From positions 1-64,000 of the forward strand of contig JACVZY010000031.1 in the NCBI GenBank assembly GCA_014654705.1: DNA of 64,000 nt. The letters are read 5' to 3'. The notes below the pieces were generated by a model, which saw only the letters and a program-made list of their open reading frames with translations, was not told where the DNA came from and searched no databases. Position numbers and translations under genes: made by a program. How positions within the stretch are numbered: position 1 is the stretch's first letter; each line of letters starts with the position of its first letter. Shown piece by piece: positions 47,509-56,226 of this stretch. Origin of the DNA: Ignavibacteria bacterium (lineage in GTDB: Bacteria; Bacteroidota; Ignavibacteria; Kapaibacteriales; UBA4661).

Positions 47509-47663
47509 TTCCTCGCGTCCATCGAAATTTGGTGTGTGCTTGATTTCGGGCTTCATTTGTTCCAGCACGCATCTTTTTTAGGTATATTTGCAATGCCTTC
47601 GGTACATTTCTCAAGACCGCAAGCAATCTACTACTTTTCTGATTGTTCAGCCTAACGACCATT

Positions 47664-48179
47664 ATGAACCGTATTTTCATTCTCGCCGGAGTACTCGCCT
47701 CTCTGCTGGCTTTCGGTTGTGGAAAACAATCTGCCGATAACAAAACCGCAGGGACCGCCGCACAAGAGACGACAAAGCCGCAAGAAACCTTATACAAGGC
47801 TTTTGGTGATTCCGTACAGTCCACTTCTCTGCCACTTGCTCTTGCCGATGCGGTACGATCACCCTCGACGACCAATGTTGTACGTGTCATGGCAAAGGTG
47901 ACGGAAGTGTGCCAGAAAAGAGGCTGTTGGCTGATGCTGACCGACGGCAGTTCAATGGTGCGGGTTACTTTCAAGGACGACGGTTTTTTCGTTCCCAAAG
48001 ACATCGCGGGGAAAACAATTATTGCCGAAGGACTCGTAACCGAAGAAATTATTCCTGAAAGTGATGCTCGTCATCATGCTGAGGATGCGGGAAAAAGCAA
48101 GGCGGAGATTGAAAAAATCAAAGGCGACCAAAAGCGTATTACCATGCTTGCCCAGTCGGTCTTTCTGCCAGTGAACTAA
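47664..48179 (+). CDS. DUF4920 lipoprotein
   Basis: Encodes 171 residues from ATG 47664 with signal sequence ILAGVLASLLAFGC and a lipobox cysteine (FGCGKQSADN), so it is a lipoprotein. The DUF4920 core shows VMAKVTEVCQKRGCWLMLTD with its conserved paired cysteines, and VRVTFKDDGFFVPKDIAGKT. The role of the family is unknown; the paired cysteines suggest metal or redox chemistry. It follows hisC by 156 bp. Confidence 0.87.
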   Translation: MNRIFILAGVLASLLAFGCGKQSADNKTAGTAAQETTKPQETLYKAFGDSVQSTSLPLALADAVRSPSTTNVVRVMAKVTEVCQKRGCWLMLTDGSSMVRVTFKDDGFFVPKDIAGKTIIAEGLVTEEIIPESDARHHAEDAGKSKAEIEKIKGDQKRITMLAQSVFLPVN

Positions 48180-53150: not shown

Positions 53151-54437
53151 CTACTTTGTGTCATTTTTCAAGGCTTGTGCGAAGCCGATACCTAACCGAA
53201 TTGTTACGCCTTGGGCTAATGGTTCGCTCTGTACAAAACCCCGTGTTTTGTAGCCCGCGTGTAGTGTCAAGCCAACGCGATATCCGTTTTGCTCTGGAAG
53301 CCACACATTTGCTAAAGCGGTGGCAGAAATTCCGGGGCGGGTTTTTTCGGAAACTCTGTCCTCTGTGCCGAGTTGCATTGTTGATTGCAGCCATGCGTCA
53401 CATTTCACGCCCAATGTTAGCCATGAATTGATGCTTACATTACGGACTTCCATACCGACACCATATGCAGGAAGCGGTGAATCAAGTGTTTGCCGATAAT
53501 ACACCAGACCACTTGCGCCCGCATACGATAAAAAATTCTCAATGTACCCTTCCACCCCAAAAACTCCTAACCCACAGCGCAGAGATGGTAAATAGCCGAC
53601 TTCGCCAAAACGAATCATCGGAAACGCCCATTCTTCCTTAGCATCCCATGTGTACTCCTTGGCATACGCATACGCAATAAAGTATTGCCAAGGGTTCAGA
53701 AGATTAAGCAAAACCTGACGTTGGATGTCCTCAAGCCTAACAGTTTTGTCAATGTTTCTATTGCGATAAAAAGCATTGAGCTTATATCGGTAAGAATCTA
53801 TATCCGCATTGTCGCCAGAAGTTGTTGTGAGAGCGTATAATGTGATGTTGTGCATGGAAAGTATTGCGGTGAGCATTTCTCGATAGTGCATCTGTCCATG
53901 CTGAAGCCATTGTAAAAAAGTGGTCTGCGCCATCCGTTGATTAGCTTCCACACCTCCTATCCAAGCTGCAATATCTTCGGTTTCAGTCAGAGAGCGCTTG
54001 TTTCTGCCCCATACAGCGAAACCACTCGCATTTCCGTAGGGTGGTCCCAAGTTAATATTGTACGACGAACCCTGAAAGCCAAATTCACGAAATCTTGCTC
54101 CATGCCCGAATACCTCATGCTGAAGAATCATCGGCAAATACTCAATGTTGTTATCCAGCAAAATCGCCTTGCTTAATCGGTACGCAATACCAGCAGCTTT
54201 TGTCCAATCCGAAGATTCGTCGAACAGTTGAGCTGGTAAAAATTTGCCCTGAACTTCAACAACAGCCCGATGCAAGGTGAGCAAATTTTCTGCTCCGGCA
54301 ATCTGCGACCACGAAGGTTCATACAGCAAAGAATAGACGGGTTGCGCCGTAAGCCGTACAGACAAGGTAATAAGCCAAATTGCAACAATGATGACAGCTT
54401 TTATCAACCCGACGATATGCTTCAGAGAATTTTGCAT
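53151..54437 (-). CDS. Exported membrane protein with HEVFGHG (HExxGH) motif
   Basis: Encodes 428 residues with a signal sequence (VIIVAIWLITLSVRLTAQ). The notable motif is MILQHEVFGHGARFREFG: His107, Glu108 and His112 in the spacing HExxGH, known from M49 dipeptidyl peptidases, here followed by a Gly. A Glu at about 164 (AAWIGGVEANQRMAQ) could be the third zinc ligand. The C-terminal half has alternating beta-strand sequence (VGLTLHAGYKTRGFVQSEPL, TIRLGIGFAQALK), as in outer-membrane barrel proteins. No known family is recognised. It lies 21 bp downstream of the ABC permease gene on the same strand and 28 bp upstream of the pullulanase stretch. Confidence 0.6.
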   Translation of the reverse strand: MQNSLKHIVGLIKAVIIVAIWLITLSVRLTAQPVYSLLYEPSWSQIAGAENLLTLHRAVVEVQGKFLPAQLFDESSDWTKAAGIAYRLSKAILLDNNIEYLPMILQHEVFGHGARFREFGFQGSSYNINLGPPYGNASGFAVWGRNKRSLTETEDIAAWIGGVEANQRMAQTTFLQWLQHGQMHYREMLTAILSMHNITLYALTTTSGDNADIDSYRYKLNAFYRNRNIDKTVRLEDIQRQVLLNLLNPWQYFIAYAYAKEYTWDAKEEWAFPMIRFGEVGYLPSLRCGLGVFGVEGYIENFLSYAGASGLVYYRQTLDSPLPAYGVGMEVRNVSINSWLTLGVKCDAWLQSTMQLGTEDRVSEKTRPGISATALANVWLPEQNGYRVGLTLHAGYKTRGFVQSEPLAQGVTIRLGIGFAQALKNDTK

Positions 54438-54457: not shown

Positions 54458-55774
54458 TTACGTGATAGGCGCAAGATTCTCCGCTACATCCGTACTATAC
54501 GCATTCAGCGCAGGCAAAAGCGCCACCAGCGCCGTGAGCGCCAGCACCCCCGCCAGCAACGGCGCATCGAAGCTGTACCACAGCGCAAAATCCAGCTTTG
54601 CGCCGAGTTGCTGTTGCAGTGCGGACTTTGCCAGATTGAGTCCAATGCGTGAAAGTACGAGTCCCGCAACACTTCCCACAAAGCCGATGATAACTGCTTC
54701 GGCAAGCATTAGTCCTACGATAGAACGCCGATGCGCACCCAGCGACCGTAAAATCGCAATCTCTCGCCTGCGCTCGTTGAGCGAGGTGTACATTGCCACC
54801 ACGATAGAAATTGCGCCAACAATAATGACCAAATACGAAATGCCGAGCAAAATACCGTTCACATTCCCGACAATTTGGAATAAGCCCATAATCTCACGAA
54901 TCGGCATGGCTGCTTGTGCTGACGTACCGTCGTTCACACTGCGCGTGAAACTGTCGTAAAAAACTGGGCTTTTGAGTTTCACGGCAAGCGCGGTAACGGT
55001 TGTAAACTCCGGCGGAATCGGGTGTTCGTGGTGTTCTTCTTTGTGTTCTTCAGAATGTTCGGATTTCGCTTCGGATTTTTTCTCACCATTGGCTGTGGCA
55101 AGTGCTTGTTCAGCGGCTTCCCGTGCTTCTTCGTACTCGTCGTAATGCGTGTCCCAGACGGTTCGCATCGTCATATACACGCCTTTGTCAACGGCAGTGC
55201 CGGTGGCAGCAAGCGTCCCCACGATAGGCATTTTTCCGTGGTCGTGTGCGCCCTGTTCATTTGTTTCCAAGCCGTGCCGGACGGTAATGGAATCGCCTGT
55301 TTTGAGGCGAAGATTCTGTGCGACTTCTGCGCCAAGCACTGCTTCAAAATCGCCCGTAAACGGCTTACCGTCTGCCATACCAATTTGCAAACCTTTGCGA
55401 TATTCAAACTTCGTAAAAAAATCTGCTGTCGTACCAATGACTTTGAAACCGCCGACATTATCACCAAAAACCATCGGGAGGCTTGATTTGACACGCTTGT
55501 CGGCTTGTATGCGCTCGCAATCGGCAAGCGGAAAATTGCCGACAGGAGCGCCAACATGATAGAGCGTGTTCAGCACAAGCTGAAGCGGGCTACCCTTCGC
55601 GCCGACAATAATTTCAAACCCCGTGTCCTTTTGTGAAAACGAGCGCTCTGCTTCAACGCGCAAAGTGAGAATCGCTGCCGTGAGCGCTACGCCGACAGCA
55701 ACCGATACCATCGTGAGTGCCGTTGCGACCGAGCGCTGTTGTAAAAAACGAAGCAGAAGTTTGAACGTGTTCAT
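54458..55774 (-). CDS. FtsX/MacB-type ABC transporter permease
   Basis: Encodes 438 residues: an N-terminal TM (SVATALTMVSVAVGVALTAA), a large periplasmic MacB-PCD-like domain (ADCERIQADKRVKSSLPMVF) and three C-terminal TMs (VNGILLGISYLVIIVGAISI, SIVGLMLAEAVIIGFVGSVA, LLAGVLALTALVALLPALNA) with the FtsX loop LNERRREIAILRSLGAHRRS. A charged His/Glu-rich stretch at about 225-260 (SEHSEEHKEEHHEHPIPPEF) is unusual and might bind metal. No ATPase gene is adjacent. Such permeases work in lipoprotein or drug export. Confidence 0.87.
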   Translation of the reverse strand: MNTFKLLLRFLQQRSVATALTMVSVAVGVALTAAILTLRVEAERSFSQKDTGFEIIVGAKGSPLQLVLNTLYHVGAPVGNFPLADCERIQADKRVKSSLPMVFGDNVGGFKVIGTTADFFTKFEYRKGLQIGMADGKPFTGDFEAVLGAEVAQNLRLKTGDSITVRHGLETNEQGAHDHGKMPIVGTLAATGTAVDKGVYMTMRTVWDTHYDEYEEAREAAEQALATANGEKKSEAKSEHSEEHKEEHHEHPIPPEFTTVTALAVKLKSPVFYDSFTRSVNDGTSAQAAMPIREIMGLFQIVGNVNGILLGISYLVIIVGAISIVVAMYTSLNERRREIAILRSLGAHRRSIVGLMLAEAVIIGFVGSVAGLVLSRIGLNLAKSALQQQLGAKLDFALWYSFDAPLLAGVLALTALVALLPALNAYSTDVAENLAPIT

Positions 55775-55908: not shown

Positions 55909-56226
55909 TTATCGTACAGAATTGTGAATCCAAATCAAAAACGGATCGTAGCCGCGTTCTATGGGTAGCGCCACGATGCACGGGCAGTCGTAGCTGTGCA
56001 TTTCCGATGCCTTGTCTATGAGCGCGGTCAGACGCTCGTCATTTGTTTTGGCGATGAGAACGGCTTCTTGACTTGTTTCCATCGCACCCTCCCACCAGTA
56101 GATTGATTTCATGCCGGGCAGGATATTGACGCAGGCTGCAAGGCGCTCCTCGACAAGAGCCGCGCCGATACGCTCGGCTTCTTCGGTGCCGGAGGTGGTG
56201 ATATAGACGAAATGTGCTTTGGGCAT
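55909..56226 (-). CDS. cutA: Divalent cation tolerance protein CutA
   Basis: Encodes 105 residues of the trimeric CutA1 family: FVYITTSGTEEAERIGAALV, ERLAACVNILPGMKSIYWWE, then SQEAVLIAKTNDERLTALID and the end YDCPCIVALPIERGYDPFLI. The role in copper or other cation tolerance is based on E. coli and is debated. It lies 22 bp behind the hybrid kinase gene on the same strand and may share its transcript. Confidence 0.95.
   Translation of the reverse strand: MPKAHFVYITTSGTEEAERIGAALVEERLAACVNILPGMKSIYWWEGAMETSQEAVLIAKTNDERLTALIDKASEMHSYDCPCIVALPIERGYDPFLIWIHNSVR

Follow-up and report, generated by a model that had tools for sequence, protein, structure and literature searches.

A protein family with a predicted zinc site, a helical domain resembling the site-2 protease core and a probable outer-membrane barrel, found in an Ignavibacteria bacterium

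Site-2 proteases of peptidase family M50 (PF02163), including SpoIVFB, RseP and the M. jannaschii site-2 protease (S2P), are by definition enzymes that work inside helical membranes. Their third zinc ligand is an aspartate, and an edge strand holds the substrate as an extended strand. Other metallopeptidases carry related motifs. The M41 peptidases, of which FtsH is the type, combine HExxH with a later aspartate and form ATP-dependent complexes that include no barrel. Known barrels of the outer membrane often carry lipid hydrolases such as OMPLA, PagL and LpxR. The barrels of OMPLA and the porin NanC have 12 strands.

The protein described here, P0001, appears to share with the M50 site-2 proteases an HE(x)xGH helix, a beta-hairpin, a GPxx-like helix and an aspartate that opens a later helix. 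It differs in that its motif is HExxGH instead of HExxH, the plain form HELGH being found only in one homologue (L048). It also lacks the LDG sequence, with Asp212 falling at the place of the M50 aspartate by range arithmetic (see below), and it has no predicted transmembrane helices, is apparently exported, is joined to a probable barrel and matches no Pfam family. Because the M50 model match, the HExxH motif and the transmembrane core all failed, P0001 is not to be filed as an M50 peptidase. With dipeptidyl peptidase III (DPP III) of family M49 (PF03571), it shares HExxGH with the glycine that follows and a conserved glutamate about 52 residues farther on. However, its domain comprises only about 230 residues, compared with the 687-780 residues of the M49 frames that we examined, and the absence of a model match together with a glutamate that is not constant means that P0001 is not to be filed as M49 either. 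P0001 appears to work like the M50 fold and probably derives from it. We consider it reasonably probable that P0001 is a zinc peptidase anchored in the outer membrane, with a catalytic domain that derives from a site-2 protease core and is soluble in water.

The gene lies in a window of 64,000 nucleotides from a contig of an Ignavibacteria bacterium. The list of open reading frames (ORFs) and their translations place a frame of 428 amino acids at positions 53151-54437 of the minus strand, whereas the plus strand of the same interval, read from the same first base, contains many stops. All features of P0001 given below are on the minus strand. The original prediction, made from the letters of the DNA, had placed HEVFGHG at residues 107-113 and Glu164 within GGVEAN, and both were recovered there in the minus-strand translation. 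An AlphaFold2 model of the whole protein (mean pLDDT 91.6, pTM 0.88) divides the ORF (53151..54437) into an export segment, an S2P-like helical domain and a C-terminal beta-barrel. The hydrophobic N-terminus (residues 1-31, 54345..54437), with a helix at residues 2-24 in the model and a 19-residue Kyte-Doolittle maximum of 2.23, is a probable signal peptide, as had been proposed. In the AlphaFold2 model it is followed by a short strand (residues 34-39, 54321..54338). The model range begins at residue 32-36 in 29 of the 50 listed structural matches to the whole model, and in many of them this strand is aligned with barrels.

The helices of P0001 fall within residues 45-264, and the domain model together with the structural and profile ranks delimits a catalytic-like domain that resembles the M50 core at residues 41-270 (53628..54317). 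Conservation in 36 homologues defines the motif HExxGHGxRxRE at residues 107-118 (54084..54119), in which His107 and His112 are predicted zinc ligands and Glu108 is the predicted base. Next comes a beta-hairpin region (residues 121-145, 54003..54077), with strands at 125-128 and 139-142 in the AlphaFold2 model, that the models and profile alignments identify as the counterpart of the M50 hairpin. GGVEAN (residues 161-166, 53940..53957), which includes Glu164, is aligned with the M50 GPxx motif. Conservation and superposition ranges put Asp212 (53802..53804) where M50 enzymes carry the aspartate of LDG, and it is the predicted third zinc ligand. The C-terminal part has an eight-stranded region at residues 280-421 (53175..53600), delimited by the AlphaFold2 model and by column alternation.

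No family name was found for P0001 and its homologues. P0001 matched no family in Pfam or NCBIfam even at E 10, and the 32 members of our alignment A2, searched at E 1, gave isolated matches of one member each (best E 0.03), none of them to M50. M50 models including PF02163 matched neither P0001 nor any of the 32 members, sequence searches of the PDB yielded no M50 entry either, and PF03571 was matched by none of these proteins and by nothing in the window's own genome. Thus, the profile check against Pfam that the original prediction had called for returned no named family, and this result, together with the barrel-type strands, supports its description of P0001 as an exported, putative envelope metallopeptidase of an unnamed family. 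Sequence matches in the PDB to SPT6 (E 0.28-0.33) and, for the A2 profile at positions 182-260, to U2 B'' (E 0.0068) were taken as chance, and a profile of the domain (A3) found no match in the PDB up to E 10. Among PHROGs, one PHROG of unknown function was returned at E 0.53. For the terms searched in an open-access library, no listed paper describes a barrel combined with an S2P-like domain; the one paper with both HEXXGH and 'outer membrane' deals with Bacteroides DPP III (PMC5667867).

The family is patchy in its spread and divergent, with identities to P0001 of 22-34%. An initial one-sequence search of genome contigs produced no match. A single copy was found in the genome that carries the window. 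Among 61 genomes of close relatives, two carry the gene, one being this genome and the other represented by a small contig that is suspected to be mis-binned. In a sample of the phylum, a single-sequence search reported five of 395, of which four (the window's own included) were accepted, and a profile search reported seven, of which six were accepted. The class sample yielded the family gene in 7 of 294. Candidates rejected as homologues were L006 (22% identity, E 0.0058, with an internal stop), L049 (a 44-residue frame with two stops), and L051, L052 and L122 (short weak matches). A search of viral contigs and plasmids found no family member.

A scan of a collection of species genomes that required the pattern [VL][QNA]HE[VIY][FA]GHG found the family at 36 loci, spread over Bacteroidota, Ignavibacteriota, Chlamydiota, Verrucomicrobiota, Aminicenantes, Zixibacteria, Delongbacteria, Fibrobacteres and others. 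Five of these (L012, L015, L024, L038 and L039) are partial or frameshifted and were left out of A2. In the tree, the 12 rows from Chlamydiota form one group (96/87) and the rows from Bacteroidota are split. One locus, L031 (the same gene as L002), is on a 5.7-kb contig in an Ignavibacteriae bin and takes a place among the chlamydial rows (100/99); it is possibly mis-binned chlamydial DNA or the result of a transfer. Another three, L033, L035 and L036, closely resemble one another and have common neighbours, although their records are labelled Aminicenantes, uncultured bacterium and candidate division B38.

Because 31 of the 36 tabulated homologue rows came from a scan that demanded the motif, the constancy of HExxGHG in these 31 A2 rows is built in. 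Two other sets of observations are free of this constraint. Among seven homologues obtained without the pattern and readable in their N-terminal region (L002, L003, L004, L005, L058, L048 and L047; L057 is not among them), five have HExxGH, one has HExxH (HELGH, in L048) and one has lost the motif (L047). Three of the seven were also recovered by the scan, L002 as L031, L004 as L014 and L005 as L019, and the scan would have overlooked L058 with its motif HECMGHG. The second set consists of residues outside the pattern, which are nearly constant in the 36 homologues: Asp212 in 35, Arg115 in 34, Arg117 in 33 and Tyr201 in 34. His107, Glu108, His112 and Asp212 all occur in the same 35 homologues, L047 being the exception, and the motif is therefore not a chance occurrence in P0001.

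These counts bear directly on the third zinc ligand. M49 came into consideration because of HExxGH, and the original prediction, which had pointed out that this spacing is that of M49, had named Glu164 as the candidate third ligand. On this account P0001 would be a gluzincin-type envelope metallopeptidase of M49-like design, and any likeness to M50 would be incidental. The HExxGH spacing is indeed present, the distance of 52 residues from His112 to Glu164 is comparable to that in M49, and Glu164 is kept in 32 of the 36 homologues. However, residue 164 is glycine in two homologues with HExxGH intact (L003 and L042), aspartate in one (L009) and asparagine in one, and L003 and L042, which are devoid of Glu164, nonetheless keep both histidines, Glu108 and Asp212. 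Since Asp212 is kept along with the histidines while Glu164 varies, Asp212 is the better candidate for the partner of both. The conservation expected of the three residues was therefore found for the two histidines, and Glu164 proved less constant than Asp212. We judge the M49-like account to be quite unlikely, and the site that we predict is His107/His112/Asp212.

Two divergent homologues extend this picture. L047, from the same order, is encoded at 1489-2757 of its locus on the minus strand. It has lost His107, Glu108, His112, Glu164 and Asp212 together and keeps the barrel, including Lys397 and Gly400, and judging from these substitutions it is likely a pseudoenzyme. Its existence indicates that the barrel has been used without catalysis at least once, as might be expected if P0001 were a structural or transport barrel with the helical domain as its plug and the conserved histidines serving stability or metal sensing. 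Such a role seems very improbable to us, given that His107, Glu108, His112 and Asp212 persist in all but one of 36 homologues despite their great divergence and that a plain structural metal site would not need Glu108. The other homologue, L048 (721-1980 of its locus), is from the window's own genus and is very divergent. Plain HELGH replaces HEVFGH in this protein, alongside a retained GGFEAN and a counterpart of the aspartate, and L048 may represent an intermediate stage in how the HExxxH form arose. Searches with L048 returned, beyond L048 itself, weak short matches only. The occurrence of HELGH and HEVFGH in one genus makes the origin of an enlarged HExxxH zinc motif directly testable.

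The reading of P0001 as an M50 derivative draws on structural comparison of the helical domain. A structural search with the whole model was filled by barrels, and a separate AlphaFold2 model was made of residues 41-270 for this reason (pLDDT 94.7, pTM 0.90). Foldseek found no significant match to this domain in the PDB; rank 1 was SpoIVFB at E 0.34 and rank 10 was the M. jannaschii S2P, and the other rows listed were mostly nuclear-receptor domains. When the domain was realigned against 999 chains, the eight best rows were all M50, comprising RseP of three species, SpoIVFB and the M. jannaschii enzyme, with Z values of 9.7, 9.0, 9.0, 8.3, 8.2, 7.8, 7.4 and 7.0, which fall below the value of about 13 under which Z in helical folds may mean a common arrangement. 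The best rmsd was 2.8 Å over 131 residues. RseP entries with bound batimastat are among the rows listed. After the M50 rows came a Vibrio protein of unknown function with Z 4.8 and then FtsH with 4.7. M50 is thus followed, among metallopeptidases with a name, by FtsH-type M41 (Z 4.7 to 3.7), at half the Z of M50. No M49 chain was among the best 50 rows of the 999 realigned chains, an absence that in itself proves nothing. Among viral predicted structures, rank 1 for the domain was a weak match (E 0.088) annotated as Peptidase M50.

The ranges of these superpositions also suggest which residues correspond. Provided that no gap separates the motif from the end of the range and that the chain numbering is not shifted, the first histidine of M50 falls at domain residue 66-67 in all five RseP rows (the actual histidine is H67), and the LDG aspartate falls at domain residue 169-173 in all eight M50 rows (the actual aspartate, D172, is Asp212). 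The M50 motif positions used were counted in alignments, that of the first histidine by hand; for SpoIVFB, Glu44 was read from the entry title, and the zinc-binding aspartate we take to be Asp137.

In hydropathy, P0001 departs from intramembrane M50 enzymes. The highest 19-residue value in its domain is 1.02, and 31 of the 32 members reach at most 1.6, whereas three M50 proteins, one from this genome and two from relatives (L071, L082 and L089), have 39-59 windows above 1.6. By this measure no transmembrane helices were found in the P0001 domain. Their lack would make sense, since such helices would hardly get past the inner membrane as part of a barrel protein that is exported.

Profile comparisons point in the same direction as the structures. 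For comparison, we built families of small M50, M49, M48 and RseP-type M50 proteins from genomes of the same phylum. In hhalign, small M50 proteins gave E 9e-4, followed by M49 (0.014), M48 (0.043) and RseP-type M50 (0.056), the last being no better than M49 or M48, and four reversed controls gave E 0.14-0.69. The hhalign probability was 23% for the small M50 family profile and at most 56% for single proteins. In a ranking of 499 single ORFs that lie outside the family and come from the window and from fetched loci, places 1-8, 10 and 12 went to ten small M50 proteins, but these look like orthologues and thus amount to one independent signal, not ten. The other leading places went to a non-peptidase ORF (rank 9), M48 (11) and M49 (14 and 15), with other M50 proteins at 19-148. 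The second place of M49 among the four families and its two ranks near the top speak for the M49-like account, yet the M49 profile matches span only 14-32 columns, and the top eight rows of the structural comparison all belong to M50. With hmmsearch, M50 accounted for six of the first 12 non-family rows, the best of them at a nonsignificant E of 0.17. The profile alignment pairs HEVFGHGARFREFG with HE-FGHYFAARKHG, and PYGNASG with PFGTMGA of the M50 hairpin. The GGVEAN stretch was aligned with the M50 GPxx helix in two of the four printed single-protein alignments (L086 and L081).

The C-terminus had been described from the sequence as barrel-like, and the model has eight strands in the C-terminal third (residues 280-421) that show hydrophobic/polar alternation of the transmembrane type. 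Averaged over 32 sequences, the columns of one face are mostly Leu, Ile, Val and Phe, and those of the other hold conserved Arg, Glu, Asp, Gln, Lys and Gly, with R287, E296, D347, Q351 and K397 as conserved polar residues. Lys397 and Gly400 are present in all 36 homologues. The last residue is Phe in 18 of the 32 members and Trp in one; P0001 itself ends in Lys. Foldseek rank 1 for the whole model, a triglyceride transfer protein, had TM-scores of 0.14 and 0.08. Among the rows listed after realignment of the whole model, porins were best, with Z of at most 7.8. P0001 is probably an exported, outer-membrane beta-barrel protein. Its loop lengths alternate in a manner consistent with a first long strand that begins in the periplasm, and the helical domain would then also face the periplasm.

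The barrel region aligns with porins such as NanC and with OMPLA (1qd6; Z 6.3, 3.7 Å over 131 residues), although the P0001 model has fewer strands than these proteins and its predicted enzyme site is in a separate helical domain. The OMPLA entries among the barrel matches raise the prospect that the same zinc site serves a hydrolase that acts on lipid, lipopolysaccharide or peptidoglycan instead of protein and that reaches the outer membrane by means of the barrel. The conserved polar face of the barrel, with the invariant Lys397 and Gly400, might help in binding such a substrate. This appears unlikely, because proteases have the folds closest to that of the helical domain, and the resemblance to OMPLA lies in the barrel, not in an active site.

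Should P0001 instead be a peptidase derived from M50, its mechanism can be sketched. The protein would be exported and its signal peptide removed, after which its C-terminal strands would form a barrel in the membrane and hold the helical domain at the periplasmic mouth of this barrel. Zinc would be bound by His107 and His112, in an HExxH motif with one extra residue, and by Asp212, with Glu108 activating water. The hairpin at residues 121-145 may hold an extended substrate strand, and the substrates may be segments of envelope proteins that are unfolded or C-terminal. The analyses show the gene, the family, the barrel-type strands, the resemblance to M50 in fold and profile and the conservation of the four residues; that P0001 binds zinc, cleaves peptides, resides in the outer membrane and faces the periplasm, and what its substrate is, we infer. 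If this scheme is true, the family shows how an S2P core can work in water, and the outer membrane gains a new kind of protease. We more tentatively propose, at somewhat less than an even chance, that one lineage with the S2P fold moved out of the cytoplasmic membrane. Its core would have ceased to be transmembrane, its zinc motif would have grown by one residue, and it would have come to serve as the catalytic head of a barrel in the outer membrane, in a family spread thinly across many phyla, including environmental chlamydiae.

The genomic context of the family was compared over as many as four ORFs on each side in 36 sources, namely 35 of the 36 scan loci (without L038) and the window. Among the 25 largest clusters, and setting close relatives aside, neighbour families recur in at most two distant lineages each, which is too little for naming a partner or a substrate. 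CutA1 is one such neighbour. In the window it is encoded at 55909-56226, upstream of the P0001 gene past a permease, and a relative is found in L035 and L036 at three ORFs from the family gene, on the opposite strand; its proximity is perhaps chance or perhaps a hint at metal handling. A scan for promoters and terminators gave sites no more numerous than in shuffles. Directly upstream of P0001 is an FtsX/MacB-type permease (54458-55774), which ends 20 bases before the P0001 ORF, and a pullulanase-like ORF starts 27 bases downstream, both on the minus strand like P0001. The permease carries a His/Glu-rich insertion (SEHSEEHKEEHHEHP). Elsewhere in the window, the plus strand at 47643-48179 encodes a small DUF4920 protein (Pfam E 9.2e-25) that appears to be exported.
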